A stretch of 64,000 nucleotides of DNA from Tubulanus polymorphus (taxonomy: Eukaryota; Nemertea; Palaeonemertea; Tubulaniformes; Tubulanidae). The notes beneath the pieces are model-generated. The model had not been told where the DNA came from. It worked only from the letters and a program-made list of their open reading frames with translations, and did not search any database. Shown one piece after another: positions 6,053 through 64,000 of the stretch; positions within the stretch are counted from its first letter, which is position 1; each line of letters starts with the position of its first letter. The stretch is taken from NCBI RefSeq assembly GCF_964204645.1, contig NC_134027.1, positions 603,501 through 667,500 of the forward strand, given 5' to 3'. The translations under genes were made by a program, and so were the position numbers.

Positions 6053-6083
<31 letters not shown>

Positions 6084-9000
6084 GCAACAAAAATTTGATA
6101 TTTCCATGTCTGGGATTGACGTAAGTTATCGTAAACGCCTGTTTGAAGTCATCATTCTTGAGCTTGAAACCGAAATTTATATATATAGAATATTAAACCC
6201 TGCTTCTGCTACTGACAGGTAATGTCCGTCATACATTACTGCATCGTCAAATCTATACCAGGGTGCACCCAGCCTGATCGTTCGCATCATCACATGCAAA
6301 GGGCTGATTATTTTGGAACCCAGTTTTTATCAGCTGGAACATTCTGCACATTCGACCATATTGATTGATAGCCCGTTATAGACGAGTGGAGAAAAACTGG
6401 AAAACCAGTTCAATGTTACCTCATGGTAAACATAAGGGAATTTCAATGAGTTTAACTCACATTTACAGAGTTTTAACGAGGTTAGACTGATTAACCATTA
6501 TTCCATCAATGGTGTGTTCTGTCCATCAAGGCTCCTCAGACGCACCGAGCAGTCAAATGCAGCAGTAGCACGAGGGTCGGGTGTTCTCGTGTGGGCAGAC
6601 GGTCCGAACCCCAAAACCATTTACTTACACTATACAAATCAGATCAGGTTTTTAACATTGTCTTTGATTGTATTTTCAGTTTCTGCCGACAACGCCGACA
6701 ACGCCGCCAAGCGGTACTTCTACGCCGGTAAGTGATAACTATTTTCTAATAAATCACGCTTATTTCAATTTGTAATTTAAAAATAGAGGGCAGTAGCTGT
6801 TTTGCATAAATTATGCTAATTAGGAATAAATTCAAATTCGATTAAGTCTCATCATCGTAGAAGTCATATATTAATGATGCTATCTCTACAGTTGTCATTT
6901 GAATTAAGTGTTATATTTACTACTTAATTTGCTTCATGACCCAAAAGCCTCTACTATATAACTACTGGTTTTGTTCTAATCTTGGAGAATTTGCTGCAAA
7001 ATTAACTTATCATTCGTTAATCAGTTTTTATTGAAAACCTGAATCAGTGATACATGCATTCATGAATATCCATCTAATATTTTGTTTTATTTTATCTTTA
7101 CAGAACATATCACCGATACAGCACGTGGACGTAAGACATTAAACATTGATCTTGAATTTTAAGTTCAAACTAATTTATTTTTTATCTCACTCGGGACTAT
7201 AGTTATTGCGTTCACTTTGCGTCCAGTTGTCTCGGCTAGTTTTTGATTTATCGTGTTGATAATTGGTTTATATACTCAAACTACTCAAACTCAAAATATT
7301 GGCACAATTGGAATTAAGATGGCGGACTTGTATGACCATTTTTTTCCCCGGCAAAATCAGCGCTTTAGGATCAATTCTGTTGTTGTTATATTACATTGAA
7401 ATCAGAGTTTAATATATATCAGTATAGAGCAGGTTTTTGCTCTAGTTATAAATAAAGTTATAAATAATCTCATGACATGTTCTGTATATGTGTAGTGAGT
7501 TTCAATGTCTTTGGTTCCTTTTAAACCAGGGGGAGTTAAATTTGAAAATGTCAGATCGTCGAGCATTTCAGACCACTTCCAAAGTGGGTCCCTGCACCCC
7601 TAGTTATACCGTTAATATTTTAATAATACATTAATATTTTTATTTGATAGAATATATTGATATACCATACATTGATATCGGTCTTGTAATTGGATCAACA
7701 ACCATGAGATCAAAACACAGCAAATATGAACCTGCTGTGAATCAATAGATTTGTGATAAATGTAATGAAATTGTTATTTTTCATATTGACTTTTTGAGTT
7801 AAGGGTCTGTTGTATAAGAGTATTTGGTCTCGCGTGTCAATGTATGATATCAATCTGTTGTATTTCCTCGTTCCAATGTTTAAAAGGTGTTCGTCACCTT
7901 ATATTAATATCCTCCGTGTTTAAAAACCTGTGCGTATTACTTTTACCGTTAGATGGCGCCATAAGTGTGATATTTGATATATGGGATACCCGCAAAACCA
8001 GCTATTCCACCAGATGGCGCAACGAGTAGTAGGTCGTTCGTTGTCAAAATTAGTTCATTTTCAATGAACTTTGAACTGGTTTGAAGAAGAAATACTTTCA
8101 TTCTTCTACTCTGATATCGGTTTAGTTTTCATTAATAATTGATTCATTTAAGAGAACAATTCATTCAGATTTAATTGAAATGTACAAGAAAATCGAACGC
8201 AGACGACCAACTATTTACTAGCGACACCTGGTGGATCCTCGCATGCCATAAGTGGAATCCTCGATTGCCACAGTAAGACTGCGGGTATCCCATTGTTTGG
8301 CGTGTGATAAAGTAAAGTTAGAAAACGAATGTTTAACTTTGTTGTGAAATGAAAGCGTTTTGGAGATTTTTAAACCGATCAAATCAATATTTTGATATTA
8401 CGCTTGAAACCCTTCCCACTCATATTCTGCTTACTAAGTATATATTCTAGTTTCCGTGGAAATCATGGTGAGTGGCGCCATCTATACAGTGGAGTTAGCT
8501 TTATAAATCGAGTATGATTCGACAAGTGGCTCCATCTATTCCCTAATACTGAAGCGAGGTAACCAGCAGCGCCCTCATATACAGGAAATGAACGCCTATC
8601 AAGTTCAACAATGCACGGTGTATTGACCACCGCGACCGGTGATAATTATATCAATGTTGATTAGCTATTGCCATAGACAGGTCCGTAGCGTTTGACTGGA
8701 CCAGAACGGGGTCTCCTAACCAAAACAAATTTTGAAAACGTGCCCAGATAAATTGCCTCTGGGAGATTGATTAACGAGGTTTTGATTGAATGAACAAATT
8801 TTAATATTTGTAAGTTTAACATTTCTGTTTTTAATTTTTCTTTGTAAGGAACTGAATTTTCGAACCCCCCTGAACCGCTTCAAGCTACGTTCCTGATATA
8901 GTGCTAGCTATACCTGAATACTTTTCTCTTATTGAAATTGTCTAAAAAACCAGCACCTTGAACTAATGAACGTCATAATGAAAATGTTTAAAAATTCAAC

Positions 9001-12000
9001 CGTTAATGAATTTGACTAATGTATTTTTTTTATTTTCATTTCTAGCGTCAGTTTGCCTCAGAGGCTACGTCGCCGTCGCTTAATGTAAGTATCAGTGACG
9101 CCCTCAATCTCACATGCCTCACTTCCCTCCTAATGTAACCATTTTTATGAAATTCCTCAAGAAAATATATACTGATAATCTTAGAATACACGTTTTTGTA
9201 CCCAGACCCCTTCATTCTACTGAACTACCGTGTAATCAGTACCTGTTGTGTTCATTTTCTGTTGCATTGATTTATATATTATTTCTATTTATAGTTGTCA
9301 AACAACAGCAGCAGCAGCAGCGCACCCCTCCCGCCGGAGACGCCTCCCGACTTGCAAGCAAGAAGTAAGTTCAGTCTTCAAATACAATTTCAACGCATTC
9401 AATTTTTTGTATGGCGTTAAAACGGTTAAAGTTGTGACTAGTTTTCATAACTCCGTGACGTCAGGTGTGAGACAAAATACAATATCATATTTCCATCGAG
9501 TACCGGACCCTTTCCTATGTTTTTTGCCAATTTGGATTGAATGATCGCCAGCGGTTTTTCTATACGACCCGGCTCTGCTGTATTGCATTTAGCCATCCTT
9601 TTTCTTGGCGTTTTTTATAAGAAGGTGTTTGATTTTGTCTCTAAGGGATTTAGGAATTTAAGAGACACTTGTACTCTCTATGCAGTGAGTTTGTTCTGTT
9701 TTTGTTCCCTCGTGAATTTTATTTTTGTTTGAATCAAATCAAATCAGTGCATCTTTCTTGAATTGCGTGTATGTTATAATATTATGTAAGTTATAACGTT
9801 AAAATATCTGTTATATTTAAACCGAATATTTAATTGTTGTATTTTGAATGCGATAATGCCGCTCCCTGCTAAAGTCCAGCGTCGTCGTGAGGGATGCGGT
9901 CATCTGTTCGGGCCCTGATTACGTTCTGTGTTCATCCTGTTTGGCTACATCGGGCGTTATATGAGTTAATCCTTCCTGGACTTGCGGATTGTGGTCGGAA
10001 GATCTATGGGTTCGGGCCGAGAAGTCCCAGAAACAGAAAGTACAGTTTCTGTCGATGTACCGATTGATGTCTCTATTTCAGAAAGTAACAGCGGTCGCCA
10101 GCTGTACTAGCAAGGTTGGTTTCCCAACTCCATTCTCTGAGGAGGATCGCTGGTTCTCTAGTGCCGGTCAGTCACCAGTCAATCAATGGTTCAGCTGGTT
10201 CACTGTCCGAATGGTATTTCCCAGATATCGCACAGGAACTCGGGTTCGGTCCGGGCTACTCCGAGCAATGGTCCGGTCCAGGCATCACCGGGAACTGTAC
10301 ATCCAGTCCGGTGCGGTCACCTCTGAGCACCGGTCCAGTCCAGGCATCACCAGTTACTGAACATCTTGTCCGGTCCGGGCGGCCTCAAGCTACGGTTGGG
10401 TCCAGGCATCACAGGGTACTGAACATCTGGTCCCGTCCAGGCATCACCGGGTACTGAACATCCAGTCCGGTCCGGTCCAGGCATCACTGGGAACTGTACA
10501 TCCAGTCCGGTCCGGTCCAGGCATCACTGGGAACTGTACATCCAGTCCGGTCCGGTCCAGGCATCACTGGGAACTGTACATCCAGTCTGGTCTGGTCCAG
10601 GCATCACCGGGTACTGAACATCTGGTCCGGTCCGGCAGCTTTGAGCACCAGTCCATTCCAGGCATCACCGGGTACTGAACATCCAGTCCGGTCCGGTCCA
10701 GGCATCACTGGGAACTGTACATCCAGTCCGGTCCGGTCCAGGCATCACTGGGTACTGAACATCTGGTCCAGTCCGGCAGCTTTGAGCACCAGTCCATTCC
10801 AGGCATCACTGGGTACTGAACATCCAGTCCGGTCCAGGCATCACCGGGTACTGAACATCCAGTCCGGTCCGGTCCAGGCATCACCGGGTACTGTACATCC
10901 AGTCCGGTCCGGTCCAGGCATCACTGGGAACTGTACATCCAGTCCGGTCCGGTCCAGGCATCACCGGGTACTGAACATCCAGTCCGGTCCGGTCCAGGCA
11001 TCACTGGGTACTGAACATCCAGTCCGGTCCGGTCCAGGCATCACTGGGAACTGTACATCCAGTCCGGTCCGGTCCAGGCATCACTGGGAACTGTACATCC
11101 AGTCCGGTCCGCTCCAGGCATCACCGGGTACTGAACATCCAGTCCGGTCCGGTCCAGGCATCACTGGGTACTGAACATCCAGTCTGGTCCGGTCCAGGCA
11201 TCACTGGAAACTGTACATCCAGTCCGGTCCGGTCCAGGCATCACTGGGAACTGTACATCCAGTCCGGTCCGGTCCAGGCATCACCGGGTACTGAACATCT
11301 GGTTCGGTCCAGGCATCACCGGGTACTGAACATCCAGTCCGGTCCGGTCCAGGCATCACTGGGAACTGTACATCCAGTCCGGTCCGGTCCAGGCATCACT
11401 GGGAACTGTACATCCAGTCAGGTCCGGTCCAGGCATCACTGGGAACTGTACATCCAGTCCGGTCCGGTCCAGGCATCACCGGGTACTGAACATCTGGTCG
11501 GTCCAGGCATCACCGGGTACTGAACATCCAGTCCGGTCCGGTCCAGGCATCACCGGGTACTGAACATCTGGTCGGTCCAGGTATCACCGGGTACTGAACA
11601 TCCAGTCCGGTCCGGTCCAGGCATCACTGGGTACTGAACATCCAGTCTGGTCCGGTCCAGGCATCACTGGGTACTGAACATCCAGTCTGGTCCGGTCCAG
11701 GCATCACTGGGAACTGTACATCCAGTCCGGTCCGGTCCAGGCATCACTGGGAACTGAACATCCAGTCCGGTCCGGTCCAGGCATCACCGGGTACTGAACA
11801 TCCAGTCCGGTCTGGTCCAGGCATCACTGGGTGCTGAACATCCAGTCTGGTCCGGTCCAGGCATCACTGGGAACTGTACATCCAGTCCGGTCCGGTCCGG
11901 TCCAGGCATCACTGGGAACTGTACATCCAGTCCGGTCCGGCCAAGGCATCACTGGGTGCTGAACATCCAGTCTGGTCCGGTCCAGGCATCACTGGGTACT

Positions 12001-15000: not shown

Positions 15001-18000
15001 ACATTTTGAAATTTGTCAATTATAACCATGGTTTCTCATTGTTAGTATGGTGGTTGTTACCAAGATTGAGGATTTACCCCTAGGGATAACTTTAAATACT
15101 CAGTCTATGAAACCGGGTCCTGGAGTATTTGTCTGTTGGTTTACCTCGACGACTGGTTACTAGTACCAAACTCGACTATAGAATGTCAGGAGGCGGTGAC
15201 CGCTGTCGTAGACTTAGTTCACCAGTTCCGCGTAAACTAAGTAAAATCTCACTTGATGCCGTCCCAACAGTTCACATCTCCGGATCAGCACGGTCTTTCC
15301 GTCCATGGCTCGAGTAGCCAAACTTCAAGAAGCGTAGTTACCACAAACGAGAGGACAGCTAGTTATCGGTGACGCCTGTGGCTAAATGCAATACCGCAGT
15401 GCCAGGGATCGTATCTCTGGCTATCTACACATTCAGAGAATATTAACTAAAACCATAGGAAAGGGTCAAGCACTACTCCGAAAAAAAACAAATTTTATTT
15501 CCAAAAAATTATGATATTATATGGATTGCATGCTGTGTGGAAGAAGTTTTCAAAATTATTTAGGAGCTTATTATAATTTGAATGCATGAATTGAGAGCAA
15601 TTTGAAATGTGTTGATATCCGAAAGTGTCTCCATTGACTTCACTCATTCACCTGATGAAGCTTCTATACATTAGTACCCAAAGCTTGTGTGTCAAATAAA
15701 CTAGTTACACGTCCTATAAAGTACTACTTGTCTCGTTATATATTCTAAACCCCAGTTAACAATTCCAGTAAGTCAGGTTTAGGGAATAGATATTTAAACC
15801 TTGAGATGAAACCGATGTGATACAATTCCAGTAAGTCAGGTTTAGGGAGTAGATATTTAAACCTTGAGATGAAACCGATGTGATACAATTCCAGTAAGTC
15901 AGGTTTAGGGAATAGATATTTAAACCTTGAGATGAAACCGATGTGATACAATTCCAGTAAGTCAGGTTTAGGGAATAGATATTTAAACCTTCAGATGAAA
16001 CCGATGTAATACAATTCCAGTAAGTCAGGTTTAGGGAATAGATATTTAAACCTTCAGATGAAACCGATGTGATACAATTCCAGTAAGTCAGGTTTAGGGA
16101 ATAGATATTTAAACCTTCAGATGAAACCGATGTAATACAATTCCAGTAAGTCAGGTTTAGGGAATAGATATTTAAACCTTGAAATGAAACCGATGTGATA
16201 CAATTCCAGTAAGTCAGGTTTAGGGAATAGATATTTTAACCTTGAGATGATACCGATGTGATACAATTCCAGTAAGTCAGGTTTAGGGAATAGATATTTA
16301 AACCTTGAGATGAAACCGATGTGATACAATTCCAGTAAGTCAGGTTTAGGGAATAGATATTTAAACCTTGAGATGATACCGATGAATTTAGCAATTTTGA
16401 ATGAATTAAACCAATATGAGATTTCGATCCTAAGAATATTGGAAGCTTGTGTTTAACTTTACTAAATAGTAATATTATATAAAGCTAGAAGGACACGAGG
16501 GTATCCATTTTTTTGCCCGATCGCAACGATTAAATTCGCCGGTGAATTTATACGCCCGATACGAGCGGGTACCGATCTATCTATAAATCGGCCGTCACGG
16601 TGATTTCGTCGCCCGCCGACATTAAACATGTTCGATATTTACGCCGGTGTTCGGGTCACTTGTTAATTCGCTCGTCTTGTCGGCAAGTTTAAAAAGATTT
16701 AGAAAAAACTACAAATTCTCATTCCTGAATAAACTGGATTCACCTGGGTTCAGTTTCATGAGACACAGTTCAAACTGCTCTTGAATTTGAGTTTGTAATT
16801 AATGTATGTGATTATAATGAATTGTATTTTTGTTTTACAGCTTTGGCATTTCGGTTAAGTCGTGCGTTCCGGCGGGAGGAGTTCGTCAGAATATTTCTTC
16901 CAGAGTGTAAGTAGTTTAACTATTTTCATACAATATCATTTAGTGTGACGTGTGTTACTGATTCAGGCACGGATCCAGGAATGTTTCCAAGACAGGGTTC
17001 ATAAAAATCCTGACTAAAATCTCTAATAATAGCCGGGGCCTATACGGCATATTTTTTGGCCAAACATAAGGCCTTTTTTTAATAGCGTGGTTTGGTTGCT
17101 CCCAAAATTTGAAGAAACATAAAATAAAAAAGAATTAGAAAAAAAATTTTTTATTCCTGTCTGTGAAACAAATTCAGTGAAAAACCGAGCAAAAAAGATT
17201 TTTCACCTCGGCCGAATGAGAATCCTGGATTGAACGATGAAACAATTGAAAAACGCGAGGTTCTTTTTTGATCGCAGTGTGCAGAATTCAAACTTTCCAA
17301 ACTTTTAGACACATGTATATTGCCCTATTGACAGTTCCCTCTTCCTTCTAAAAGTGATTTTATCTCACTGAGGGAATTTTAAAAAAATTTTCTCTGAAAT
17401 GATATGGTAGCGTTTTTTTTTTGCTTTAAAAATTTTTTGGTAGCCGATCAGCGGGGTCACGACCCCTGAAACCCTCCCTGGATCCGCGCCTATGATATCT
17501 CCTCAAAATCTAATAAAAACTTTCAATGAATTAATGCTGTAATGACGATATGTAGCCATCTGTCTATTTGAATGCATTTGCAAAAAGCCAAAAAGAAATA
17601 GTAGCAGAATTTTGGCTAAAAGTTTAGAATACCCAAATTCAACATTGCTTGCAGCAGACGGAATTTCCGCCATTTTGGTTAACAGGGGATTCCCCCCTCC
17701 GGTACTTCCCATGATCAATAGTGTCTATGACGCGTTGCGTACGGAATGCCATGGAATTCCCTCACATGATTTATGATAATAATGTTTACTTGCATTCTGA
17801 TTGGTTAAAATCGCATGTAGTTTGAACGTAGGCAATGTTTACATTTGTAACGTCACCGGCGAGTCGCTGACATTAACGTAGTCATTGAGTTAACATTATC
17901 TTGCACTGAATGGTGATATCAATCGCATTCATTTTATAAATATTTTGAATATGAATTTGTTTTTATATATCAACTGCGAGTAACAGTGTTACGCTATTGA

Positions 18001-20412
18001 GTCTTAAGAGACAGCCTTTATGGACCTTATTGGTTGTTATAACTCACAAGCTGACTGAGTTAGCATTCTGGATCCGTCAGATTAGTTACTTCTAGAAAAT
18101 ATGTTAGTCACATTTTCTGACTATATTCTGGAAAACAGTGGAAGCTTGTATCCACCCTAGATTAGAACCAATCAGAATAGAACCAATCAGAATACACTAT
18201 TTTTTACAGAAAATGTATTTATGACAATTGCGTAAGGTTTTAGTAAAATAGTGTTTTTTCTCGAGTAGTTGCCGAAGAAGCATAAAAATTTGATTCAATT
18301 TCATTCAGATTTAAACAAACAAATCGAATTTCATTTCATTCAGCGCAAACTTCAAATCTAATTAAGATTTTGTTCAGTATGAATAAGTTGCAAATCATTG
18401 AGAGGAAAAAATAATTAATTGTGTTACTTAAAAAAATCACAATTGTACTGTGTTTATCAAAACAGGAGACCACAGGACCTTTGGTCCTCTAGTATTCTTT
18501 TCCTAGTTATTCCAAAAACACTAAAACAGTCCAATCAGCGATCGCTGCCAGACCAACACGATTACATTGAAATCAAACTTAAGTAACATCAGGCGCCCCC
18601 TGTTGGAATAATATTCATAGCCGTAGCATCGAAACCATTCGACTTGTTGTTTAATGTATTTCTCTCTATTTTTATTTTACAGTGGTGAACATTTTAGAAG
18701 AATGTCCGTTTGGGGACTTGGTGGGGGAATTCAAAAGAAACTTGGTTCCCGATAGGATACCACCACCGGTTAATCCTATGTCGCCCGCTGCTGCCCCTCC
18801 CCCACGTCCATTAAATTCGCCTCAGCAGCGGCCTGTCAGACAGCCGCCCCCGGCCGCCACTCGTTCGTCAGACAGAGTCCGGGGACGGCTGTTTGAAGGA
18901 GATCTGACGGAGGTAAGAATCTTTATTTGTTTTCATATTTTATTCAGGATATCAGTTGAAGTTCAGCAAATAAATTACCAGACCTGTAAACAGAAGAGTA
19001 GTCATAAATTTCCATTTGCGGGTAAAACCCCATAGTCGAAAACCTTCGGTTATTGATCTATATCTGCTTAAGACCAATGGTTGTACACACGAGTGCGAAA
19101 ACTTATCGCTCAAACTTTGATTGTATCCATGGTAACGCGTACAGTATACTATGCGTGACTTACCGTTTCCTATCACTGGAATACAATACTGTTTTTGACC
19201 ATGAGCGCCATCTGCGGCGGTCATAACGGACTGACTGGTGATTGGCTGAAATGCTCGTCTACCGTGGTGACGATTATTCGGTGTTACACGTGCAGCAGAC
19301 ACGTCTCTGAATATCTAACATTTGATTGTTGTAACTCATCGGGAAAAATGTGTTTATGAGTCGATTGAGAAAATTGGCTGCGTACGTCAAGAAGGCGGCT
19401 GATATTTGTATCGTGTGACCCCTCGTCCCGGTAATATGCCGACCCATGTACACCTGAGACCAGTTGCATAGTCAGAGCTTAGAATTAAGACCGTTCTAAG
19501 ACCAACTTAGTTCTATAGCCGATCTAATAACTTAAGACCAGTCTTTAGATTTAAGACCACTTTTGGACTTAAGTCTTGACCATGGAATCGGCCCCAGATG
19601 CTTATTCCGCTGTATTGGATGCTGACGTGCTCGTGTCTTCCAGCAATGTTGTTATTCACCAAAAATATCATGTTTTGTTCGAATAACACGATTCATCTGA
19701 GTCTGGGTTTAACGGATGACACGTTCAAACAGAACTACGAAATCAATATCAGAAGTCCTTTTATATTGAAACGGTCCCAGAAGTCCCTGTTATAATGGGT
19801 ACTTTTTCAAAAAAAGTAACGAGAACTCCGATGGCTTTCCGTATTCACCGAACTATTTCTATGAGCGTCACTCGTAGATTTACCGAAACGCCACCTTGTG
19901 GCACGATATCCTAACTACGTATAGGTGTTTTATTTGCTGAATCGCTGGTTTCTCATTCTGATTTTTTATGTAGTGTTTAATTTTATACTAAACAAATTTT
20001 TCACTTTTTCTCTTTACAGACACGACCACCGCCTAAAAAAACTAGAACAAAAAGGAAAAGAAAAGTTGCGGTCGTCGTGGCTCCGCAGGGAGGAGGAGCA
20101 AGAGTGGTCCCGGCGGATGGTGCGGCTGACGAAGGTAATCGGGAGGAAGGGGAGGGGATAAATAGGAAGCGGCCGAGGAGGGATGGTGGTGGGGCTGGGG
20201 ATGGTGCGGGTCCTGCTCCTCCTGCTCCTCCATCCGTATCTCGGGCGGTCACTCGTTCACTCGCCAAAAAGCTGGCGAGTGAACGAGTGGCCCGAGAGGT
20301 AGAGGTGGTGGCCCGACATACGGATGGAATGTGGGAGGAGCGGCTTCGTTCGGGGACAATTCCGGATTTGTTAACCGATCTAAAAAATATTCTTTCAGTG
20401 AAGGGATATTAG
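4804..20412 (+). CDS. Nine-exon unknown nuclear-type protein (~340 aa), complete gene
   Basis: Exons: 4804-4869 (ATG at 4807), 6034-6120, 6680-6727, 7104-7130, 9046-9084, 9295-9364, 16841-16906, 18683-18912, 20020-20412 (TAG at 20410). Every junction has AG/GT sites and the phases chain exactly: exons 1-5 are multiples of 3 in phase 0, exon 6 ends in phase 1, exon 7 is phase 1-1, exon 8 restores phase 0. Predicted residues: 1-21 MPKAIKKTRGAG...; 22-50 with 16 Gln; 51-111 Pro/Ser/Thr-rich; 112-165 probably helical with a conserved ECPFGDLVGEFKRN segment; 166-210 Pro-rich; 216-225 KKTRTKRKRK and 260-264 KRPRR, nuclear-localisation-like. The C-terminus includes RSGTIPDLLTDLKNIL. I recognise no catalytic domain and no named family. 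Homologous exons on the minus strand at 47.5-62 kb support reality. Transcription is not proven. Confidence 0.7.
4926..5042. mobile_element. MITE-like foldback element, ~117 bp
   Basis: Starts with GGGTCCAGTTTCACAAA and ends with its near-perfect inverted copy TTTGTGAAACTGGGCCC; the interior carries two AAATCGATTT palindromes. No coding capacity. In the minus-strand copies only the outer GGGTCCAGTTTC remains, at the junction between tandem exon 1 cassettes. Confidence 0.75.
5080..5890. repeat. Diverged direct duplication inside intron 1
   Basis: Two related ~250-350 bp segments (about 5080-5330 and 5520-5885) share TTTCTGGATC, ATATCGA/ACATTCTCTAAAA and TGGTTGCTATGGAAACTATTT. No coding function; ordinary intronic sequence otherwise. 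Confidence 0.6.
6034..6120 (+). CDS. Exon 2, poly-Q exon, 87 bp
   Basis: TTTTATAG acceptor, GTAAGT donor. It encodes GTA, 16 consecutive Gln (mostly CAA, so partly a triplet repeat), then KFDISMSGID. The minus-strand counterpart at 55574-55642 keeps the last seven residues and both flanking introns but differs in the N-terminal part and has a shorter Gln run. Confidence 0.7.
6680..6727 (+). CDS. Exon 3, Thr/Pro micro-exon, 48 bp
   Basis: Encodes FLPTTPTTPPSGTSTP in phase 0, bounded by TTTTCAG and GTAAGT. The counterpart at 54975-55013 is 39 bp and reads FLPSTPPSGSSTP. Confidence 0.7.
7104..7130 (+). CDS. Exon 4, 27-bp micro-exon
   Basis: Nine codons, NISPIQHVD, between TTTACAG and GTAAGA. 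One minus-strand copy (61986-62012) is identical but has lost the G of its GT donor. Another (54580-54618) has been changed to a 39-bp exon. Confidence 0.6.
7131..9045. other. Intron 4
   Basis: AT-rich intron. It holds the foldback element at 7978-8294 and otherwise nothing I can identify. It is nearly identical to 60071-61985 on the opposite strand. Confidence 0.6.
7978..8294. mobile_element. Foldback (MITE-like) element, ~317 bp
   Basis: Perfect terminal ATGGGATACCCGCA / TGCGGGTATCCCAT inverted repeats with further imperfect pairing inward (CCAGATGGCGCAACGAGTAG versus the GCGACACCTGG side). Duplicated at about 60828-61142. No transposase frame, so non-autonomous if a transposon. Confidence 0.75.
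9046..9084 (+). CDS. Exon 5, 39-bp micro-exon
   Basis: Encodes RQFASEATSPSLN in phase 0 between TTTCTAG and GTAAGT. The opposite-strand copy at 60032-60070 is also 39 bp but encodes GHIGRLAHSPSLN, although the ~50 bases of intron on each side are identical. Confidence 0.65.
9295..9364 (+). CDS. Exon 6, Ser/Pro-rich, 70 bp
   Basis: Encodes LSNNSSSSSAPLPPETPPDL plus QAR and leaves phase 1. Acceptor TTATAG, donor GTAAGT. The phase is completed exactly by exon 7 7.5 kb downstream. The minus-strand copy at 59752-59821 differs by one base in the AGC run. Confidence 0.65.
9840..10245 (+). pseudogene. DIRS gag-like remnant
   Basis: Reading frames here contain DYVLCSSCLATSGVI, a stop, then VNPSWTCGLWSEDLWVRAEK. 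This matches the CxxC...CxxW spacing common in DIRS gag proteins. The open stretch continues to about 10245 and is the same in the opposite-strand copy (58870-59260). It is broken by a stop and frameshift. Confidence 0.45.
10250..12095. repeat. Minisatellite, 40-bp unit, ~45 copies
   Basis: The unit is built from GGTCCGGTCCAGGCATCAC and an adjoining GGGAACTGTACATCCAGTCC. It has two interleaved variants (GGGAACTGTACATCCAG and GGGTACTGAACATCCAG) plus rare longer units with GGCAGCTTTGAGCACC. It lies inside the DIRS element. The inverted copy has only about 20 units (58068-58860), so the array changed length after duplication. Long open frames here are artefacts of a repeat lacking stops. Confidence 0.95.
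12262..12782. repeat. Minisatellite, 35-bp unit, ~15 copies
   Basis: The unit contains TCACGTCGAGGGACCGTTTA followed by GGAAGTTCATGTCTT. The inverted copy (57672-57910) holds about 7 units. Confidence 0.95.
13031..13070. other. Perfect 13-bp hairpin
   Basis: ATTTTTTACCCCT is followed after 14 bases by its exact inverted copy AGGGGTAAAAAAT. It is preserved in the opposite-strand copy (about 57385-57425). Possibly an internal structural feature or transposon remnant. Confidence 0.7.
13095..13560. repeat. Three diverged ~165-bp direct repeats
   Basis: Units begin near 13100, 13260 and 13430 and share TTTTGACATATA, CATCCAAGATGGCCGCCAC, GTGTGAAATAGCC, AGCTTGTT and GATTTTCTT. Conserved in the inverted copy (56890-57360). 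Confidence 0.75.
13960..14262 (+). repeat. 27-bp coding-compatible repeat, GSAPAPAAQ
   Basis: About eleven 27-bp units. In one frame they encode a 9-residue Ala/Pro-rich repeat (GSAPAPAAQ) that leads into ARTHTMPSQAS. Because the unit is a multiple of three, several frames are open on both strands. It probably belonged to the DIRS gag-region protein. The copy at 56285-56510 has fewer units. Confidence 0.7.
14531..15330 (+). pseudogene. DIRS reverse transcriptase, broken
   Basis: Recognisable RT blocks in order: DLAKKRAIEPVRDE with SGWFS (about 14573-14640), LDLKDAYFQVPVHP (14777-14820), LPIGLSTA (about 14884-14908), VYLDDWLLVP (15139-15168) and KSHLMPSQQF (about 15240-15270). The YLDD box at 15142-15153 is intact. 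LDLKDAY and YLDD lie in different frames and several stops intervene, so no functional enzyme is encoded. The opposite-strand copy breaks off at about 55705, just after the DAYF block. Confidence 0.8.
15640..15725 (+). mobile_element. Possible retroelement 3' end (Penelope/LINE-like)
   Basis: CACCTGATGAAGCTT...AAAGCTTGTGTGTCAAATAAAC resembles the CTGATGAAG...AAA-CTT...AATAAA arrangement near the ends of some invertebrate retroelements, including Penelope-like elements with hammerhead motifs. Here the GAAA box of a hammerhead is CAAA, so a functional ribozyme is unlikely. Confidence 0.3.
15761..16384. repeat. 63-bp minisatellite, ~10 copies
   Basis: The unit starts AATTCCAGTAAGTCAGGTTT. As 63 is a multiple of three, the minus strand reads a 21-residue repeat (YHIGFISRFKYLFPKPDLLE plus L) for three to four units at a time. 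Copies with CTTCAGATG introduce stops, arguing against coding. No equivalent is seen in the inverted locus. Confidence 0.95.
16495..16690. other. Conserved GC-rich intronic block
   Basis: An island with several GCCCG/CGGGC words (TATACGCCCGATACGAGCGG, TATAAATCGGCCGTCACGG) in an AT-rich intron. It is almost unchanged at 48172-48352 in the minus-strand locus despite heavy rearrangement there. It contains TCTATAAATC (TATA-like). Function unknown; an internal promoter, enhancer or structured element are possibilities. Confidence 0.45.
16841..16906 (+). CDS. Exon 7, helical 66-bp exon, phase 1-1
   Basis: With the carried base it reads TLAFRLSRAFRREEF then VRIFLPE. TTTTACAG acceptor, GTAAGT donor. 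Minus-strand homologues of 66 bp occur at 48808-48873, 53541-53606 and 53407-53472, plus damaged ones at 47944-48008, 48378-48421 and 50077-50142. This is the most copied coding exon besides exon 1. Confidence 0.7.
16965..17495. mobile_element. Non-autonomous repeat with GGATCCAGG ends
   Basis: Bounded by GGCACGGATCCAGGAA and TCCCTGGATCCGCGCC, approximately inverted ends; no coding capacity. A shortened relative is at 49797-50030, in the equivalent intron of the minus-strand locus, and a fragment is near 48690-48765. Confidence 0.6.
17496..18682. other. Rest of intron 7
   Basis: AT-rich, no gene recognised. About 18090-18530 matches 49130-49560 in reverse orientation at high identity. Confidence 0.6.
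18683..18912 (+). CDS. Exon 8, helical plus proline-rich segment, 230 bp
   Basis: Completes exon 7's codon to give LVNILEECPFGDLVGEFKRN, then LVPDRIPPPVNP and a Pro/Ala/Arg-rich tail ending GRLFEGDLTE. Acceptor TTTTACAG, donor GTAAGA; ends in phase 0. Minus-strand copies at 47502-47662, 48450-48525 and 48902-48977 keep the ILxECPFxxLVxEFKRNLVPDRI core, so this is the most constrained part of the family. Confidence 0.7.
18913..20019. other. Intron 8
   Basis: Contains a TAAGACC-rich repeat patch at about 19470-19590 (five or more TTAAGACC words, SINE- or MITE-like). Otherwise nothing recognised. Confidence 0.5.
20020..20412 (+). CDS. Exon 9 (terminal), basic C-terminal region, 393 bp
   Basis: Phase 0 after TTTACAG; 130 codons and TAG. 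It starts TRPPPKKTRTKRKRKVAVVV, is Gly/Ala/Pro-rich in the middle, and ends RSGTIPDLLTDLKNILSVK-GY. It contains a perfect DNA inverted repeat (20250-20265/20274-20289) encoding TRSLAKKLASERV. The minus strand holds three partial versions (53967-54194, 53646-53771, 52555-52850). Confidence 0.7.
   Translation, partial: TRPPPKKTRTKRKRKVAVVVAPQGGGARVVPADGAADEGNREEGEGINRKRPRRDGGGAGDGAGPAPPAPPSVSRAVTRSLAKKLASERVAREVEVVARHTDGMWEERLRSGTIPDLLTDLKNILSVKGY
20250..20289. other. Perfect 16-bp hairpin inside exon 9
   Basis: CACTCGTTCACTCGCC, 8-base loop, then GGCGAGTGAACGAGTG. Weaker pairing continues outward (CCGTATCTCGGGC versus GCCCGA...ATACGG with an inserted block). The hairpin is partly lost in the minus-strand copy near 52655-52680. 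Confidence 0.85.
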
Positions 20413-48352: not shown

Positions 48353-48377
48353 ATATCATATTACTATTTAATAACGT

Positions 48378-50883: not shown

Positions 50884-50991
50884 CTAGAAAAACAAGTAAA
50901 AATATTAAATCATTTGAAACTGGACCCAGGGGTACAAAATACTAAGTATTGGATGAATAAATAAGCATGGAAGCAGTAAATTTGTACTTAC

Positions 50992-51057
50992 TTTATTGTA
51001 CGGGCTTGAGGTTGAGGGCCCCGCGCCCCTGGTTTTGGTTGTGGCTTTTGGCATCTT
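50992..51057 (-). CDS. Exon 1 homologue, cassette 2
   Basis: MPKATTKTRG-AGPSTSSPYNK with intact splice sites. ATTK replaces AIKK relative to its neighbours. Confidence 0.6.
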
Positions 51058-51165
51058 CTAGAAAAACAAGTAAGAATATTAAATCATTTGAAACTGGACC
51101 CAGGGGTACAAAATACTAAGTATTGGATGAATAAATAAGCATGGAAGCAGTAAATTTGTACTTAC

Positions 51166-51231
51166 TTTATTGTACGGGCTTGAGGTTGAGGGCCCCACGC
51201 CCCGCGTTTTTTTTATGGCTTTCGGCATTAT
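51166..51231 (-). CDS. Exon 1 homologue, cassette 1
   Basis: MPKAIKKTRG-VGPSTSSPYNK. It is the copy nearest the upstream 47-bp minisatellite, the position held by exon 1 in the plus-strand gene. Confidence 0.6.
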
Positions 51232-53966: not shown

Positions 53967-55642
53967 CTAGTGAGGGAATGATTGACTGCCCACAATAGCA
54001 GGACCCGCACCATCCCCAGCCCCACCACCATCCCTCCTCGGCCGCTTCCTATTTATCCCCTCCCCTTCCTCCCGATTACCTTCGTCAGCCGCACCATCCG
54101 CCGGGACCACTCTTGCTCCTCCTCCCTGCGGAGCCACGACGACCGCAACTTTTCTTTTCCTTTTTGTTCTAGTTTTTTTAGGCGGTGGTCGTGTCTGTAA
54201 AGAGAAAAAGTGAAAAATTTGTTTAGTATAAAATTAAACACTACATAAAAAATCAGAATGAGAAACCAGCGAATCTATTATCAGTTAGATAATTCACTAA
54301 AACTGACTCATTGTACTTAAAAACATCAAACTAGAATTATTATAACTTACTGGTAAAACCCGCCTTTCAAATGGCGTTGGCGCTCGAGTCGGGGCAGGAG
54401 CATTGGTATTCTAGAAAAAATGAAATTATTTCATATAAATGAAAAATATACAAATTCACAGAACACAATTTCATGCTACAGTCAGGCCGTAGAGTGAGAT
54501 ATATTGAATTAGTTACAACTCTAAAATGGGTGATGAATGTTTGAGCTCTAATAGCTGAAGTTCCTGGTTTCGCAGATACATTGGTACTGGTTGACGTTCC
54601 TGGTTTCGGTGATAAATTCTGTAAAGATAAAATATAACAAAATATTAGATGGATATTCATGAATGCATGTATCACTGATTCGGGTTTTCAATAAAAACTG
54701 ATTAACGAATGATAAGTTAATTTTGCAGCAAATTCTCCAACATTAGAACAAAACCAGTAGTTATATAGTAGAGGCTTTTGGGTCATGAAGCAAATTAAGT
54801 AGTAAATATAACACTTAATTTAAATGACAACTGTAGAGATAGCATCATTAATATATGACTTCTACGATGATGAGACTTAATCGAATTTGAATTTATGCAA
54901 AACAGCTACTGCCCTCTATTTTCAAATTACAAATTGAAATAAGCGTGATTTATTAGAAAATAGTTATCACTTACCGGCGTAGAAGAACCGCTCGGCGGCG
55001 TTGACGGCAAAAACTGAAAATACAATCAAAGACAATGTTAAAAACCTGATCTGATTTGTATAGTGTAAGTAAATGGTTGTGGGGTTCGGACCGTCTGCCC
55101 ACACGAGAACACCCGACCCTCGCGCTACTGCTGCATTTGACTGCTCGGTGCGTCTGAGGAGCCTTGATGGACAGAACACACCATTGATGGAATAATGGTT
55201 AATTCAGTCTAACCTCGTTAAAACTCTGTAAATGTGAGTTAAACTCATTGAAATTCCCTTATGTTTACCATGAGGTAACATTGAACTGGTTTTTCAGTTT
55301 TTCTCCACTCGTCTATAACGGGCTATCAATCAATATGGTCGAATGTGCAGAATGTTCCAGCTGATAAAAACTGGGTTCCAAAATAATCGGCCCTTTGCAT
55401 GTGATGATGCAAACGATCAGGCTGGGTGCACCCTGGTATAGATTTGACGATGCAGTAATGTATGACGGACATTACCTGTCAGTAGCAGAAGCAGGGTTTA
55501 ATATTCTATATATATAAATTTCGGTTTCAAGCTCAAGAATGATGACTTCAAACAGGCGTTTACGATAACTTACGTCAATCCCAGACATGGAAATGTTAAA
55601 ACGTTGTTGCATATTCTGTTGTTGTTGTTGTTGTTGAGTTCT
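53967..55642 (-). CDS. Minus-strand gene copy: exons 2'-3'-4'-X-9', ~143 codons
   Basis: Exons 55574-55642, 54975-55013, 54580-54618, 54351-54410 and 53967-54194 are all phase 0 and chain without stops. They encode RT-QQQQQQQ-NMQQRFNISMSGID; FLPSTPPSGSSTP; NLSPKPGTSTSTN; NTNAPAPTRAPTPFERRVLP; then TRPPPKKTRTKRKRK... ending GAGPAIVGSQSFPH-stop. No start exon lies immediately upstream (the DIRS remnant abuts at about 55670), so a start must come from elsewhere or the copy is unexpressed. The 60-bp exon X has no counterpart in the plus-strand gene. Exons 7 and 8 are skipped here. The family function is unknown. Confidence 0.5.
54351..54410 (-). CDS. Exon X, 60 bp, unique to the minus-strand copy
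   Basis: Bounded by TATTCTAG and GTAAGT. NTNAPAPTRAPTPFERRVLP. Ala/Pro/Thr-rich like the other micro-exons, but not found in the plus-strand gene. Confidence 0.5.
54580..54618 (-). CDS. Exon 4' variant, 39 bp
   Basis: After TTTACAG, NLSPKPGTSTSTN to a GTATCT donor. The upstream intron is nearly identical to that before exon 4 (NISPIQHVD), but the exon and downstream sequence differ; KPGTS is repeated just beyond the proposed donor, so the donor choice is uncertain. Confidence 0.4.
54975..55013 (-). CDS. Exon 3' variant, 39 bp
   Basis: FLPSTPPSGSSTP, TTTTCAG and GTAAGT. Three codons shorter than exon 3, with a Ser replacing a Thr. Confidence 0.6.
55574..55642 (-). CDS. Exon 2' variant, 69 bp
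   Basis: Starts RTQQQQQQQ and ends FNISMSGID. Intron sequence on both sides equals that of exon 2, but the first two thirds of the exon are different. Confidence 0.6.
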
Positions 55643-57912: not shown

Positions 57913-58067
57913 GATGAATGATGAATCAATCATAATCTCTCGATCCATCCTCGATATCAGTGAAGGTGACCTTACTCCTGCGTCTGATAGAAGAGCGCCC
58001 TCTACCAAACCTAGAGCCATAATAACTATGTTTCAAATTCGAAACATTGATGCCAGGCCGCCCGGAC

Positions 58068-58862
58068 CAGACCGGATGTTCAGTACCTGATGATGCCTGG
58101 ACCGGACCGGACTGGATGTACAGTTCCCAGTGATGCCTGGACCGGACCAGACTGGATGTTCAGTACCCAGTGATGCCTGGACCGGACCGGACTGGATGTA
58201 CAGTTCCCAGTGATGCCTTGGCCGGACCGGACTGGATGTACAGTTCCCAGTGATGCCTGGACCGGACCGGACTGGATGTTCAGCACCCAGTGATGCCTTG
58301 GCCGGACCGGACTGGATGTACAGTTCCCAGTGATGCCTGGACCGGACCGGACTGGATGTACAGTTCCCAGTGATGCCTGGACCGGACCGGACTGGATGTT
58401 CAGTACCCGGTGATGCCTGGACCGGACCAGATGTTCAGTACCCGGTGATGCCTGGACCGGACCGGACTGGATGTTCAGTACCCAGTGATGCCTGGAATGG
58501 ACTGGTGCTCAAAGCTGCTGGACCGGACCAGATGTTCAGTACCCGGTGATGCCTGGACAGGACCAGACTGGATGTACAGTTCCCAGTGATGCCTGGACCG
58601 GACCGGACTGGATGTACAGTTCCCAGTGATGCCTGGACCGGACCAGACTGGATGTTCAGTACCAGGTGATGCCTGGACGGGACCAGATGTTCAGTACCCT
58701 GTGATGCCTGGACCCAACCGTAGCTTGAGGCCGCCCGGACCGGACAAGATGTTCAGTAACCGGTGATGCCTGGACTGGACCGGTGCTCGGAGGTGACCGC
58801 ACCGGACTGGATGTACAGTTCCCGGTGATGCCTGGACCGGACCGGTGCTCGGAGTAGCCCGG
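58068..58862. repeat. 40-bp minisatellite, inverted copy, ~20 units
   Basis: Same unit as 10250-12095 with less than half the copies. Confidence 0.95.
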
Positions 58863-59751
58863 ACCGAACCCGAGTTCCTGTGCGATATCTGGGAAATACC
58901 ATTCGGACAGTGAACCAGCTGAACCATTGATTGACTGGTGACTGACCGGCACTAGAGAACCAGCGATCCTCCTCAGAGAATGGAGTTGGGAAACCAACCT
59001 TGCTAGTACAGCTGGCGACCGCTGTTACTTTCTGAAATAGAGACATCAATCGGTACATCGACAGAAACTGTACTTTCTGTTTCTGGGACTTCTCGGCCCG
59101 AACCCATAGATCTTCCGACCACAATCCGCAAGTCCAGGAAGGATTAACTCATATAACGCCCGATGTAGCCAAACAGGATGAACACAGAACGTAATCAGGG
59201 CCCGAACAGATGACCGCATCCCTCACGATGACGACGCTGGACTTTAGCAGGGAGCGGCATTATCGCATTCAAAATACAACAATTAAATATTCGGTTTAAA
59301 TATAACAGATATTTTAACGTTATAACTTACATAATATTATAACATACACGCAATTCAAGAAAGATGCACTGATTTGATTTGATTCAAACAAAAATAAAAT
59401 TCACGAGGGAACAAAAACAGAACAAACTCACTGCATAGAGAGTACAAGTGTCTCTTAAATTCCTAAATCCCTTAGAGACAAAATCAAACACCTTCTTATA
59501 AAAAACGCCAAGAAAAAGGATGGCTAAATGCAATACAGCAGAGCCGGGTCGTATAGAAAAACCGCTGGCGATCATTCAATCCAAATTGGCAAAAAACATA
59601 GGAAAGGGTCCGGTACTCGATGGAAATATGATATTGTATTTTGTCTCACACCTGACGTCACGGAGTTATGAAAACTAGTCACAACTTTAACCGTTTTAAC
59701 GCCATACAAAAAATTGAATGCGTTGAAATTGTATTTGAAGACTGAACTTAC

Positions 59752-59821
59752 TTCTTGCTTGCAAGTCGGGAGGCGTCTCCGGCGGGAGGGGTGCGCTGCT
59801 GCTGCTGCTGCTGTTTGACAA
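59752..59821 (-). CDS. Exon 6 copy, 70 bp
   Basis: Identical to exon 6 except one A-to-G change in the AGC run. Ends in phase 1 with no compatible exon 7 before the next exons on this strand. Confidence 0.5.
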
Positions 59822-60031
59822 CTATAAATAGAAATAATATATAAATCAATGCAACAGAAAATGAACACAACAGGTACTGATTACACGGTAGTTCAGTAGA
59901 ATGAAGGGGTCTGGGTACAAAAACGTGTATTCTAAGATTATCAGTATATATTTTCTTGAGGAATTTCATAAAAATGGTTACATTAGGAGGGAAGTGAGGC
60001 ATGTGAGATTGAGGGCGTCACTGATACTTAC

Positions 60032-60070
60032 ATTTAGAGATGGAGAATGCGCAAGGCGACCGATATGACC
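60032..60070 (-). CDS. Exon 5' variant, 39 bp
   Basis: GHIGRLAHSPSLN between TTTCTAG and GTAAGT. Only the last four residues match exon 5, while adjoining introns are identical for at least 50 bases on each side. Confidence 0.55.
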
Positions 60071-60827
60071 CTAGAAATGAAAATAAAAAAAATACATTAG
60101 TCAAATTCATTAACGGTTGAATTTTTAAACATTTTCATTATGACGTTCATTAGTTCAAGGTGCTGGTTTTTTAGACAATTTCAATAAGAGAAAAGTATTC
60201 AGGTATAGCTAGCACTATATCAGGAACGTAGCTTGAAGCGGTTCAGGGGGGTTCGAAAATTCAGTTCCTTACAAAGAAAAATTAAAAACAGAAATGTTAA
60301 ACTTACAAATATTAAAATTTGTTCATTCAATCAAAACCTTGTTAATCAATCTCCCAGAGGCAATTTATCTGGGCACGTTTTCAAAATTTGTTTTGGTTAG
60401 GAGACCCCGTTCTGGTCCAGTCAAACGCTACGGACCTGTCTATGGCAATAGCTAATCAACATTGATATAATTATCACCGGTCGCTGTGGTCAATACACCG
60501 TGCATTGTTAAACTTGATAGGCGTTCATTTCCTGTATATGAGGGCGCTGCTGGTTACCTCGCTTCAGTATTAGGGAATAGATGGAGCCACTTGTCGAATC
60601 ATACTCGATTTATAAAGCTAACTCCACTGTATAGATGGCGCCACTCACCATGATTTCCACGGAAACTAGAATATATACTTAGTAAGCAGAATATGAGTGG
60701 GAAGGGTTTCAAGCGTAATATCAAAATATTGATTTGATCGGTTTAAAAATCTCCAAAACGCTTTCATTTCACAACAAAGTTAAACATCCGTTTTCTAACT
60801 TTACTTTATCACACGCCAAACAATGGG

Positions 60828-61142
60828 ATACCCGCAGTTTTACTGTGGCAATCGAGGATTCCACTTATGGCATGCGATGATCCACCAGGTGTCGCTAGTA
60901 AATAGTTGGTCGTCTGCGTTCGATTTTCTTGTACATTTCAATTAAATCTGAATGAATTGTTCTCTTAAATGAATCAATTATTAATGAAAACTAAACCGAT
61001 ATCAGAGTAGAAGAATGAAAGTATTTCTTCTTCAAACCAGTTCAAAGTTCATTGAAAATGAACTAATTTTGACAACGAACGACCTACTACTCGTTGCGCC
61101 ATCTGGTGGAATAGCTGGTTTTGCGGGTATCCCATATATCAA
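60828..61142. mobile_element. Foldback element, inverted copy
   Basis: Copy of 7978-8294 with the same ATGGGATACCCGC ends, carried along in the large inverted duplication. Confidence 0.75.
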
Positions 61143-61985
61143 ATATCACACTTATGGCGCCATCTAACGGTAAAAGTAATACGCACAGGTTTTTAAACAC
61201 GGAGGATATTAATATAAGGTGACGAACACCTTTTAAACATTGGAACTAGGAAATACAACAGATTGATATCATACATTGACACGCGAGACCAAATACTCTT
61301 ATACAACAGACCCTTAACTCAAAAAGTCAATATGAAAAATAACAATTTCATTACATTTATCACAAATCTATTGATTCACAGCAGGTTCATATTTGCTGTG
61401 TTTTGATCTCATGGTTGTTGATCCAATTACAAGACCGATATCAATGTATGGTATATCAATATATTCTATCAAATAAAAATATTAATGTATTATTAAAATA
61501 TTAACGGTATAACTAGGGGTGCAGGGACCCACTTTGGAAGTGGTCTGAAATGCTCGACGATCTGACATTTTCAAATTTAACTCCCCCTGGTTTAAAAGGA
61601 ACCAAAGACATTGAAACTCACTACACATATACAGAACATGTCATGAGATTATTTATAACTTTATTTATAACTAGAGCAAAAACCTGCTCTATACTGATAT
61701 ATATTAAACTCTGATTTCAATGTAATATAACAACAACAGAATTGATCCTAAAGCGCTGATTTTGCCGGGGAAAAAAATGGTCATACAAGTCCGCCATCTT
61801 AATTCCAATTGTGCCAATATTTTGAGTTTGAGTAGTTTGAGTATATAAACCAATTATCAACACGATAAATCAAAAACTAGCCGAGACAACTGGACGCAAA
61901 GTGAACGCAATAACTATAGTCCCGAGTGAGATAAAAAATAAATTAGTTTGAACTTAAAATTCAAGATCAATGTTTAATGTCTTAG

Positions 61986-62012
61986 TCCACGTGCTGTATC
62001 GGTGATATGTTC
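61986..62012 (-). pseudogene. Exon 4 copy with destroyed donor
   Basis: Identical 27 bp and TTTACAG acceptor, but GTGGACGTAAGAC has become GTGGACTAAGAC: deletion of a G removes the GT donor and creates an in-frame TAA. Confidence 0.7.
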
Positions 62013-62222
62013 TGTAAAGATAAAATAAAACAAAATATTAGATGGATATTCATGAATGCATGTATCACTGATTCGGGTTTTCAATAAAAACTGATTAACG
62101 AATGATAAGTTAATTTTGCAGCAAATTCTCCAAGATTAGAACAAAACCAGTAGTTATATAGTAGAGGCTTTTGGGTCATGAAGCAAATTAAGTAGTAAAT
62201 ATAACACTTAATTTAAATGACA

Positions 62223-64000
62223 ACTGTAAGGGTGTATGCGACAAATAAGGAAAATACAGTTAATTTCCCTGTTTTCGGCTTAAATTTGAAGTAGATGAAA
62301 ACCTGTTTTCTTTGAATTGAAGCCACGGGAACCACTTAACCTCATTTTCAAGCCGGCTTAGAATTGGCGATGTTGGGTTATTATGTCATTGATTTGCACA
62401 AAACGGACACCAGTATAATCAAATTCCCATCCTCGATGGCAAGCGTTTCCAAAAACCCAGCAACAGTGAGTTCCGGGAACTCATTTTGACATGGAATGTC
62501 GGAATCCAAGCCTTCGATAATTTCCCATCTCCACCGTGACCCGATAGACTCAATTACTCAAATAATTTGCGGACCTCCCATTTTGACACGACATTAAGAA
62601 TTCAAAACCCGCCAAGGAATCGACCACGAAATTCAATTAATTCAATTTTTAATACATGAATAAAAGTTAACCGGTAGGAAATTATACGGAACAATTATCA
62701 TCTTACCCACGTACGTGTATATATATACCCAGCATTATAGATATTATTGAAGTTTTCAGTTAAACAAGCCATAATAGAATTTAGGTGACATGAACTACTA
62801 CCAAAAAATAAGCTTTTCATCTTATTCCTAAAGGAACTGGTTCAACACAAATCAGTTATCTATTTTGTTACTAGCATGCAAAGCAAAACATTCAAATGTT
62901 CAAAAACATTTAAATTTTTGATATATTCTAAATGTATTGTTTGCTTTTATTTCTATTAACGGAATTGATGAAAAAGTTGTTTAGCTGAATCGCAGTATCG
63001 TCTCGCAACTGGATCTTTTATGACACAGTGTATTATACTTTTTCCACTTTGGGGTTATTTTCTAAGTGATTCACAATACGCGAGCGGATAGTGATGGTGA
63101 TTGAATACTGATTAAAGATAAAATGTCAGCTCTTTAATCTGTATTAGTGTATATGCCCATATAATAGCTAGAAAGGACATATGCAGCAAATAATCACGAA
63201 TCTGAGGATGTTCAATGTATACACTGACTTTTAAGTGTTCTTAATATCCAGCAGTGATGTATAGTGTGTGTATTATTGAAGTCCGTGTCCATGTGCAATA
63301 GGTATTATCGAGTAGACGGAATGGCCTGGTCGCTTTCGGTCTATGTGGCTTTATGTTGTAATGTTACGGAATTATAAATAAAATGCTCTAGTATAGGCCT
63401 ACAAAGAAAGTCTTTATAGCGGTCAAATGCATGGTCTCGAAGAAAGAGTGAACCATGCGAAAGTTATTTACAAAATAATGTGAATTATCAGGCCATGGTA
63501 GTAGGCGGCATTGCAACTGATTCGAAATAGTCGTGTCATCATTAAGAAATATCACATTTAGATTAATAGTTTTAGCCGGTGCTCGTGGTAATTCTGATGC
63601 GAGAATGGTGTGATAAGATTAAACCAAATGATATTTTAATTTTCGTGTAGTGATAACAATTGGTCGTTTGATTCAGTTGTTCATTTTCTTGAAAATAGAA
63701 ACCCTTATAGAACTCAGATGGAAAATCTACTATGTTAATCCACTAGTTTAAGCAAGTTTCGTTTTATCTAAATAATATATTAATATATTTAGTGTAGTTT
63801 CGATCACAATGAGTTAAATTAGATATGATTATCATTGTTATGAGAATGAGGCAAATTAGGTTGGACTTATGATCGGACGTTCCGGTTTCATACAACAAAA
63901 CAAATAGAATGGATATTCTATATCATGAAAATATATCAAATATGTGAAACAGTTCGCATTGACACGATGCAGTGATATTAATGAGCTATTTGTTCTATTG
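62223..64000. other. Unique flank beyond the inverted duplication
   Basis: Similarity to the plus-strand gene ends at about 62222 (in ACAACTGTA). Beyond it I see no gene, repeat array or transposon signature, only AT-rich sequence. Confidence 0.5.

Follow-up and report, generated by a model that had tools for sequence, protein, structure and literature searches.

The locus and its gene family

The window analysed here is the whole stretch of 64,000 nucleotides at C3:603501-667500, taken from a 268-Mb assembly of Tubulanus polymorphus in 77 contigs. It contains a plus-strand gene for which a nine-exon model, conceptual and drawn from sequence alone, extends over 5370-20412(+) and predicts 340 residues, every intron having the form GTAAG...AG, together with related inverted units on the minus strand. 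In what follows, C3+ and C3- refer to the plus-strand and inverted copies of the family on C3, C6 and C8 to copies on two further contigs, R and G to two classes of exon 5, and numbers with the prefix L to individual copies; pS and pN are the synonymous and nonsynonymous divergences. The features of the window are as follows.

5370..5432, plus strand: proposed early coding exon (MGPNVPMAIHENIYPIFDLHD), with a GT donor, an open frame and, by eye, an in-frame acceptor just upstream
6034..6120, plus strand: exon 2, variable, GTA-polyQ-KFDISMSGID; its last 33 bp varied at 17% across 20 copies, introns 0.5-3%
6680..6727, plus strand: exon 3, variable, FLPTTPTTPPSGTSTP; 10% varied across 20 copies, partly through misalignment at the donor lost from the inverted copies, introns 0.5-3%
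7104..7130, plus strand: exon 4, variable, NISPIQHVD; 18% varied across 20 copies, introns 0.5-3%
9046..9084, plus strand: exon 5, R class, RQFASEATSPSLN, from the gene model and copy comparison
9295..9364, plus strand: exon 6, LSNNSSSSSAPLPPETPPDLQAR, from the gene model
16841..16906, plus strand: exon 7, LAFRLSRAFRREEFVRIFLPE, from the gene model
18683..18912, plus strand: exon 8, synonymous divergence near that of its introns (C3+ versus C6: pS 0.034, pN 0.034)
20020..20412, plus strand: exon 9, basic C-terminal part and stop, near the introns in divergence between arrays (C3+ versus C6: pS 0.018, pN 0.002)
54975..55013, minus strand: exon 3 of a second, partial inverted unit (FLPSTPPSGSSTP), from copy comparison
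55574..55642, minus strand: exon 2 of the same partial unit (RTQQQQQQQNMQQRFNISMSGID), its introns alike and the exon unlike
58062..62228, minus strand: inverted block, homologous to 6887-11072 and continued past the window by its upstream part
59752..59821, minus strand: exon 6 in the inverted copy, which matches exon 6 of L002 without a difference in copy comparison
60032..60070, minus strand: exon 5, G class, GHIGRLAHSPSLN, within C3+-type introns, from alignment and diagnostic sites
61985..62011, minus strand: exon 4 in the inverted copy, with a GT donor that has lost its G according to the alignment (7131/61984), as in the 549-kb copy

The conceptual protein has an N-terminus rich in glutamine, proline and serine and a basic C-terminus. 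It gave nothing above the cut-off in Pfam, nothing below E 0.8 in the PDB and no match at E 0.001 among 8,000 scored candidates from a large protein collection, and the window contains no Rfam element at gathering score; by these searches, the gene family would be an orphan. An MPKA exon may lie at 4807-4869, upstream of the exon at 5370-5432. On the minus strand, 50818-51231 carries an exon in three tandem copies with a period of 174 bp, (I/K)MPKA(I/T)(K/T)KTRG(V/A)GPSTSSPYNK, to which an exon at 4804-4869(+) is related; coding in this family may in fact begin with the MPKA exon.

Two further repeat-rich regions were noted within the window. A tandem array with a period of approximately 265 bp occupies 24370-26012, its units combining an acceptor-like CAG with a conserved stretch (TTTTCAATTTGCCGAGAT...), and is followed by a 46-bp minisatellite that continues up to 26987; the array may represent a repeated exon or a degenerate repeat. 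The inverted region at 47505-50135(-) contains several copies each of exons 7 and 8 in the form of partial duplicates, and the minus-strand gene is therefore scrambled relative to the plus-strand gene.

Copies of the family were collected with a probe of 461 bp around exon 5, for which 40 of 50 candidates were scored, so that the copy counts are lower bounds. There are at least seven C3+ copies (409-733 kb), at least two C3- copies (549 and 663 kb, the latter being the one inside the window), at least 18 copies on C6 plus at least six more distant ones there, five of these six opposite in orientation to most C6 copies, and at least three outparalogues (C3:1.24 Mb, C3:1.32 Mb and C8:15.6 Mb). 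A protein probe yielded at least 150 exon-level matches (150 of 301 candidates scored); those scored lie exclusively on C3, C6 and C8, none of them farther than about 1.8 Mb from a contig end.

Among 30 copies nine exon 5 haplotypes can be recognized, which fall into the G class (L026-L030) and the R class (the other 25). Exon 5 is of R type in the six distant copies on C6, and in these copies (L071-L076) there is a second place with a fused exon 5+6 (RLYFGSPGRSPPLNSDNNN...) where intron 5 is absent in all six; the fusion would be an intron presence/absence difference between paralogues, arisen by loss or gain. In one distant copy on C8 the exon 5 slot is occupied by an exon of 27 bases (DKPPCAVRL), preceded by an intron stretch of 75% identity. 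A compound DNA pattern covering both exon classes had no match within the window.

Divergence between the two versions of exon 5

The preliminary description singled out exon 5 as an exon replaced while its introns stayed identical, and its coordinates, lengths (39 bp), phase (0) and translations for 9046-9084(+) and 60032-60070(-) are correct. The C-terminal tail that it saw in both exons is indeed shared, although it comprises five residues (SPSLN) rather than four; four of these five codons differ silently. Splice sites are intact at both versions. The identical flanks, put at about 50 bases by eye, extend much farther, with zero differences at 8777-9045 and 9085-9304 in the pairwise alignment.

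When 6887-11072(+) is aligned with 62228-58062(-), the introns are not equally diverged, and the confinement of divergence to the exon is borne out. The two exons differ at 20 of 39 bases, whereas the remainder of 6887-10267 (approximately 3,340 bp) contains 10 substitutions, one 1-bp indel and one 3-bp indel (Fisher p about 1e-33, the two indels being included for a total of 12 events). Past 10267 the two copies have unequal numbers of minisatellite repeats. In the 30-copy set, C3+ and C3- copies are 51.3% apart in exon 5, against 0.57% in intron 4, 0.07% in intron 5 and 0.20% in intron 6. From the outparalogues, C3- copies differ by 12.8% in exon 5 and by 3.1-8.3% in introns; the corresponding figures for C3+ copies are 42% and 2.9-8.4%. 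In a tree of intron sequences the inverted copies (L026 and L027) are nested within the C3+ clade, beside L001.

An assembly slip had been named as a possible cause. The same exon is present in the second inverted copy (C3:549 kb), and 34 of its 39 bases are common to three outparalogues; as judged within this single assembly, the exon 5 difference does not appear to be an assembly slip.

In both inverted copies the exon 3 donor is gone (nine bases), as is the G from the donor of exon 4, and both may be pseudogenes, in which case selection for new exon 5 residues in these copies is unlikely. The G class is also found in outparalogues that retain an intact exon 4 donor (L086, L087 and L089), two of which (L086 and L089) have an intact exon 3 donor as well. 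The inverted copy of the window is broken at 62228 by inserted DNA, and its first part is located at C3:670.7-671.6 kb. The two ends of the insert (62233-62348 and positions 1-116 of L079) are identical in inverted orientation over 116 bp or more, as in a DNA transposon or foldback element.

Limits and probable source of the exon 5 tract

At sites that separate the outparalogues from all C3+ and C6 copies, the C3- copies carry the outparalogue base at 14 of 14 positions in exon 5. Elsewhere in 8000-10000 they have the local base at every listed diagnostic site, the nearest being 9029 and 9125, so that the tract measures between 33 and 95 bp, with a possible overhang of up to 16 bp upstream and up to 40 bp downstream of the exon. 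A short block belonging to another paralogue is flanked on both sides by sequence of the recipient lineage, which is the pattern of interlocus conversion. The suggestion of exon-directed conversion from another paralogue is therefore supported as to the paralogue; "exon-directed" cannot be claimed, because the tract may overhang the exon on both sides to the extent just given.

A search for the donor of the variant exon found no identical block in the assembly. When GCGCATTCTCCATCTCTAAAT was sought across the whole assembly at up to 3 mismatches, it was met in the two inverted copies and at 4 other sites (3 mismatches), a number equal to that of a backward-pattern control, and the second half of the inverted-copy exon occurs within two mismatches nowhere in the assembly beyond the two inverted copies. 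The class members L028-L030 differ from the inverted copies at 5 of 39 exon 5 bases. Private changes of the C3- copies number five inside the exon and 4 in the rest of 7400-10219, 2 of the latter being found in both copies. Since five exon bases are private and half of the exon is unmatched elsewhere, the donor was a relative of L028-L030 and not their present form, unless the exon changed fast after transfer; the exact donor may be lost or unassembled.

If tracts average at least 100 bp, a tract this closely fitted to the exon has a probability of about 0.05 or less, and this tight fit (0.05 at a 100-bp average) leaves some room for exon-precise exchange. Here the small exons would be cassettes swapped with splice-site precision between copies, the vehicle being for example recombination within introns that the copies share, or a template of RNA or cDNA. 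We regard this as improbable; were it true, a constant C-terminal part would be joined to a reshuffled set of N-terminal exons.

The direction of transfer may also be turned around. An outparalogue-like gene could have had its introns and exon 6 overwritten from the C3 array, with exons 2, 3 and 5 skipped through mismatch or selection, a process for which CEACAM32 provides a published precedent (PMC7042247). The inverted copies are nearer to outparalogue types than to C3+ in exons 2 and 5, and their exon 3 resembles that of the C8 copy L089 by eye, so that a single history would cover all three exons. Numerically, however, the divergence of exon 3 from the outparalogues is not below its divergence from C3+. 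Such overwriting also requires separate tracts, with ends no more than 16 and 40 bp away from exon 5 and further ends at exons 2 and 3. The intron edges of exon 5 retain zero outparalogue sites. On balance we consider this history unlikely, albeit the main alternative.

The same contrast in other exons and arrays

The implication that exon 5 is unique is not upheld, as exons 2, 3 and 4 give a like contrast. The idea that exon 5 alone is special was dropped accordingly: exons 2-4 likewise vary far more than introns. In exon 2, ten sequences each compared with the window copy show 5-7 differences per 30 bp versus 0-2 over the 150 bp with which intron 2 begins, a comparison that draws on ten of 19 sequences (six C3+ ones and three others stand outside it). 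The contrast recurs on another contig. In the C8 array, L122 and L123 have 0 differences over 455 intron bases and 8 over the 42 bases of the exon 5 slot, where a codon indel is found as well; by reading, three of the exon changes are synonymous. L122 is no nearer to other C8 types, differing at 8 of 42 sites from L128 and from L129 too, and no donor class is seen among them.

Introns have thus been homogenised between paralogues and exons 2-5 have not, exon 3 in some comparisons only, as in the CEACAM32 pattern considered below; radically unlike coding segments lie among similar introns, as in the toxin pattern also considered there. Exon 3 is ordinary when C3+ is compared with the outparalogues (pS 0.028). 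Exon 6 shows only a mild elevation (0.06-0.17). The longer C-terminal exons behave otherwise: between arrays, the synonymous divergence of exons 8 and 9 (0.018-0.053) is intron-like. Within C3+ the pS of exons 8 and 9 (0.029 and 0.022) is raised relative to the 0-0.8% of nearby introns. For exon 8, pN and pS are roughly equal. CAA/CAG runs at 6043-6090 and 9304-9321, in exons 2 and 6, vary in length across copies, and the ends of exon 2 (GTA, RTQ and TTE versus KFD, KFN and RFN) are variously combined across the run, as if exchange took place at the repeat.

One may ask whether the introns, rather than the exons, are the unusual part. Functionally conserved introns, with exons evolving at a normal rate, would account for the near identity of introns across arrays and for the synonymous sites of exons 8 and 9 that stand above the introns within C3+. 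Between arrays, however, intron divergence is about that of exon 8-9 synonymous sites, and the introns have long minisatellites inside them; of the explanations weighed here, we hold this one to be the least probable.

Synonymous change and the block structure of differences

Strong diversifying selection had been proposed as the cause of the exon 5 difference, a view contradicted by synonymous divergence in excess of nonsynonymous divergence between C3+ and C3- (pS 0.83, pN 0.39), to which the silent changes in the SPSLN codons belong. In the same comparison pS and pN are 0.345 and 0.146 for exon 2, 0.34 and 0.14 for exon 3, and 0.15 and 0.07 for exon 4; between C3+ and C6, exon 2 has a pS of 0.605 and a pN of 0.041. 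These values are from 16 genes, among which are 4 of the 18 copies on C6, in automatic alignments with few sites per exon. For exon 2 between C6 and the outparalogues pS even reaches 1.14, a value above 1 that is a sign of few sites; the direction pS > pN recurs nonetheless. Two intron figures are to be read with the alignment in mind: the 4.2% of intron 3 for the inverted copies is an effect of the lost donor (L078, placed separately, gives 5/367), and the 5% of intron 2 for C6 may include misalignment at a stretch absent from C6 copies.

The differences come as blocks, because the exon excess is absent within haplotype groups and present when C3+ copies are pooled. In the group g3-g7, defined by exon 5 and therefore counted without it, 1 of 166 exon sites and 14 of 3,499 intron sites varied, with identical figures for the group g1,g2; two C6 haplotype groups, which cover exon 6 alone and are uninformative for exons 2-5, were left aside. 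Among the seven pooled C3+ copies the counts are 12/166 versus 32/3,499 (p 3e-7), among four C6 genes 10/166 versus 59/3,499 (p 0.0009), and between the window copy and the 549-kb inverted copy 14/166 versus 20/3,499. Polymorphisms of C3+ for which both alleles occur in other arrays are found at 9 of 205 exon sites versus 7 of 3,499 intron sites (odds ratio 23). As these nine exon sites are confined to the start of exon 2, the end of exon 2, exon 4 and exon 5, they amount to about four events.

These results bear on two explanations in which exons diverge in place. Diversifying selection on point mutations could draw upon the R class, where the 25 copies show 12 parsimony steps in the 39 bp of exon 5 versus 190 in 2,642 intron bp (p 1.5e-5), 11 of the 12 being amino-acid changing by reading of the sites, and upon pN > pS in exon 5, which is seen within C6 (0.069 and 0) and within C3+ (0.033 and 0) only. 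Between classes pS exceeds pN, the other exons lack an excess inside haplotype groups, the G class is common to outparalogues at all 14 diagnostic sites, and the inverted copies look splice-damaged. For the difference between R and G, point selection is contradicted, and as an account of the whole pattern it is very improbable; for the smaller differences inside the R class it is possible, and positive selection may have acted there on exon 5. The second explanation, marginally less credible again, is exon-targeted hypermutation or error-prone RNA-templated rewriting with introns spared. It would fit a divergence that begins at the exon edges (exons 2 and 5) and takes in synonymous sites; it is opposed by same-haplotype copies that have no excess in other exons, by exons 8 and 9 that are intron-like between arrays, and by classes that are common to several arrays. 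Taken together, the comparisons favour an exchange of old exon haplotypes in blocks, amid homogenised introns, rather than diversifying selection acting point by point.

A probable model of exon exchange

The course of events was probably as follows: short-tract ectopic conversion carried an old haplotype of the exon into a young copy, and ongoing exchange in the family keeps its introns similar. The window would lie in a large array of an orphan family near a contig end, with copies across three contigs exchanging sequence by ectopic gene conversion. Ongoing conversion would keep the introns, and between arrays exons 8-9, near identity, while the small N-terminal exons 2-5 would persist as a few old haplotypes. 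The inverted copy would be a recent descendant of a C3 plus-strand copy (introns 0.07-0.67% apart) that gained its G-class exon 5 as a single 33-95 bp tract, from a donor whose exact form is absent from the assembly.

The comparisons show that the change came as a block, to which class it belongs, where the tract can end, that synonymous sites are in excess, and that other exons and another contig repeat the case; conversion is here the presumed vehicle. An extra force is required in addition, because neutral conversion alone would make exons and introns equally old. The overwriting history, too, requires a reason for the old haplotypes of exons 2-5, and we infer that the old exon haplotypes have been kept either by selection that maintains diversity or by the skipping of mismatched exons during intron conversion.

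Exons that evolve faster than their introns need not indicate positive selection, since much of the excess here is synonymous. A single genome suffices to read the class, the recipient lineage and the tract limits, across several exons and dozens of copies, and a family with many copies is a place for studying how short coding pieces swap. Combined with population and long-read data, it could be used to separate short-tract exchange, escape from homogenisation, and selection.

Comparison with known systems

Among the matches listed by a literature search with a capped output, which gave mostly the title and the opening of the abstract and covered few subscription journals, there was no account of the orphan family or of such a synonymous excess. 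A paper on sea-anemone toxins (PMC10210398) was weighed as a parallel and set aside.

Reportedly, in work from Cereb in 1997 and Bergstrom in 1998, HLA introns are homogenised within loci, and recent DRB1 introns surround old exon 2 motifs. The family described here is similar in having old exon lineages within young introns; the HLA case concerns alleles of immune genes, whereas here the copies are paralogues of an orphan family.

The system termed accelerated segment switch in exons (ASSET) was described from snake three-finger toxins, where segments of exons are switched and introns are more than 85% similar; the mechanism is there called not yet understood and the origin of the segments not known (PMC2711939, PMC2474615). 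Short coding segments are in both cases swapped for very unlike ones among highly similar introns. In contrast to ASSET, the divergent units examined here are whole small exons, the replaced class is present elsewhere in the genome, and the tract is limited to 33-95 bp. The ASSET genes encode secreted toxins; no toxin link emerges for the present family, whose conceptual protein has no Pfam match above the cut-off and no PDB match below E 0.8.

In cattle CEACAM32, conversion affects the noncoding parts and spares the exons of the mature protein, for which the authors invoke natural selection on the ligand-binding domain (PMC7042247). The likeness lies in noncoding parts homogenised by conversion around coding exons that stay distinct. 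Unlike CEACAM32, it is the synonymous sites that are most diverged here, several exons and arrays are involved, and the exon classes are common between arrays.

Finally, for the Sp185/333 (SpTransformer) immune gene clusters of the sea urchin, microsatellites have been proposed to take part in diversification (PMC3091723, PMC8634487). The two systems have in common that a clustered invertebrate family has reportedly been diversified by exchange; Sp185/333 genes consist of two exons, unlike the nine-exon model of the present family.
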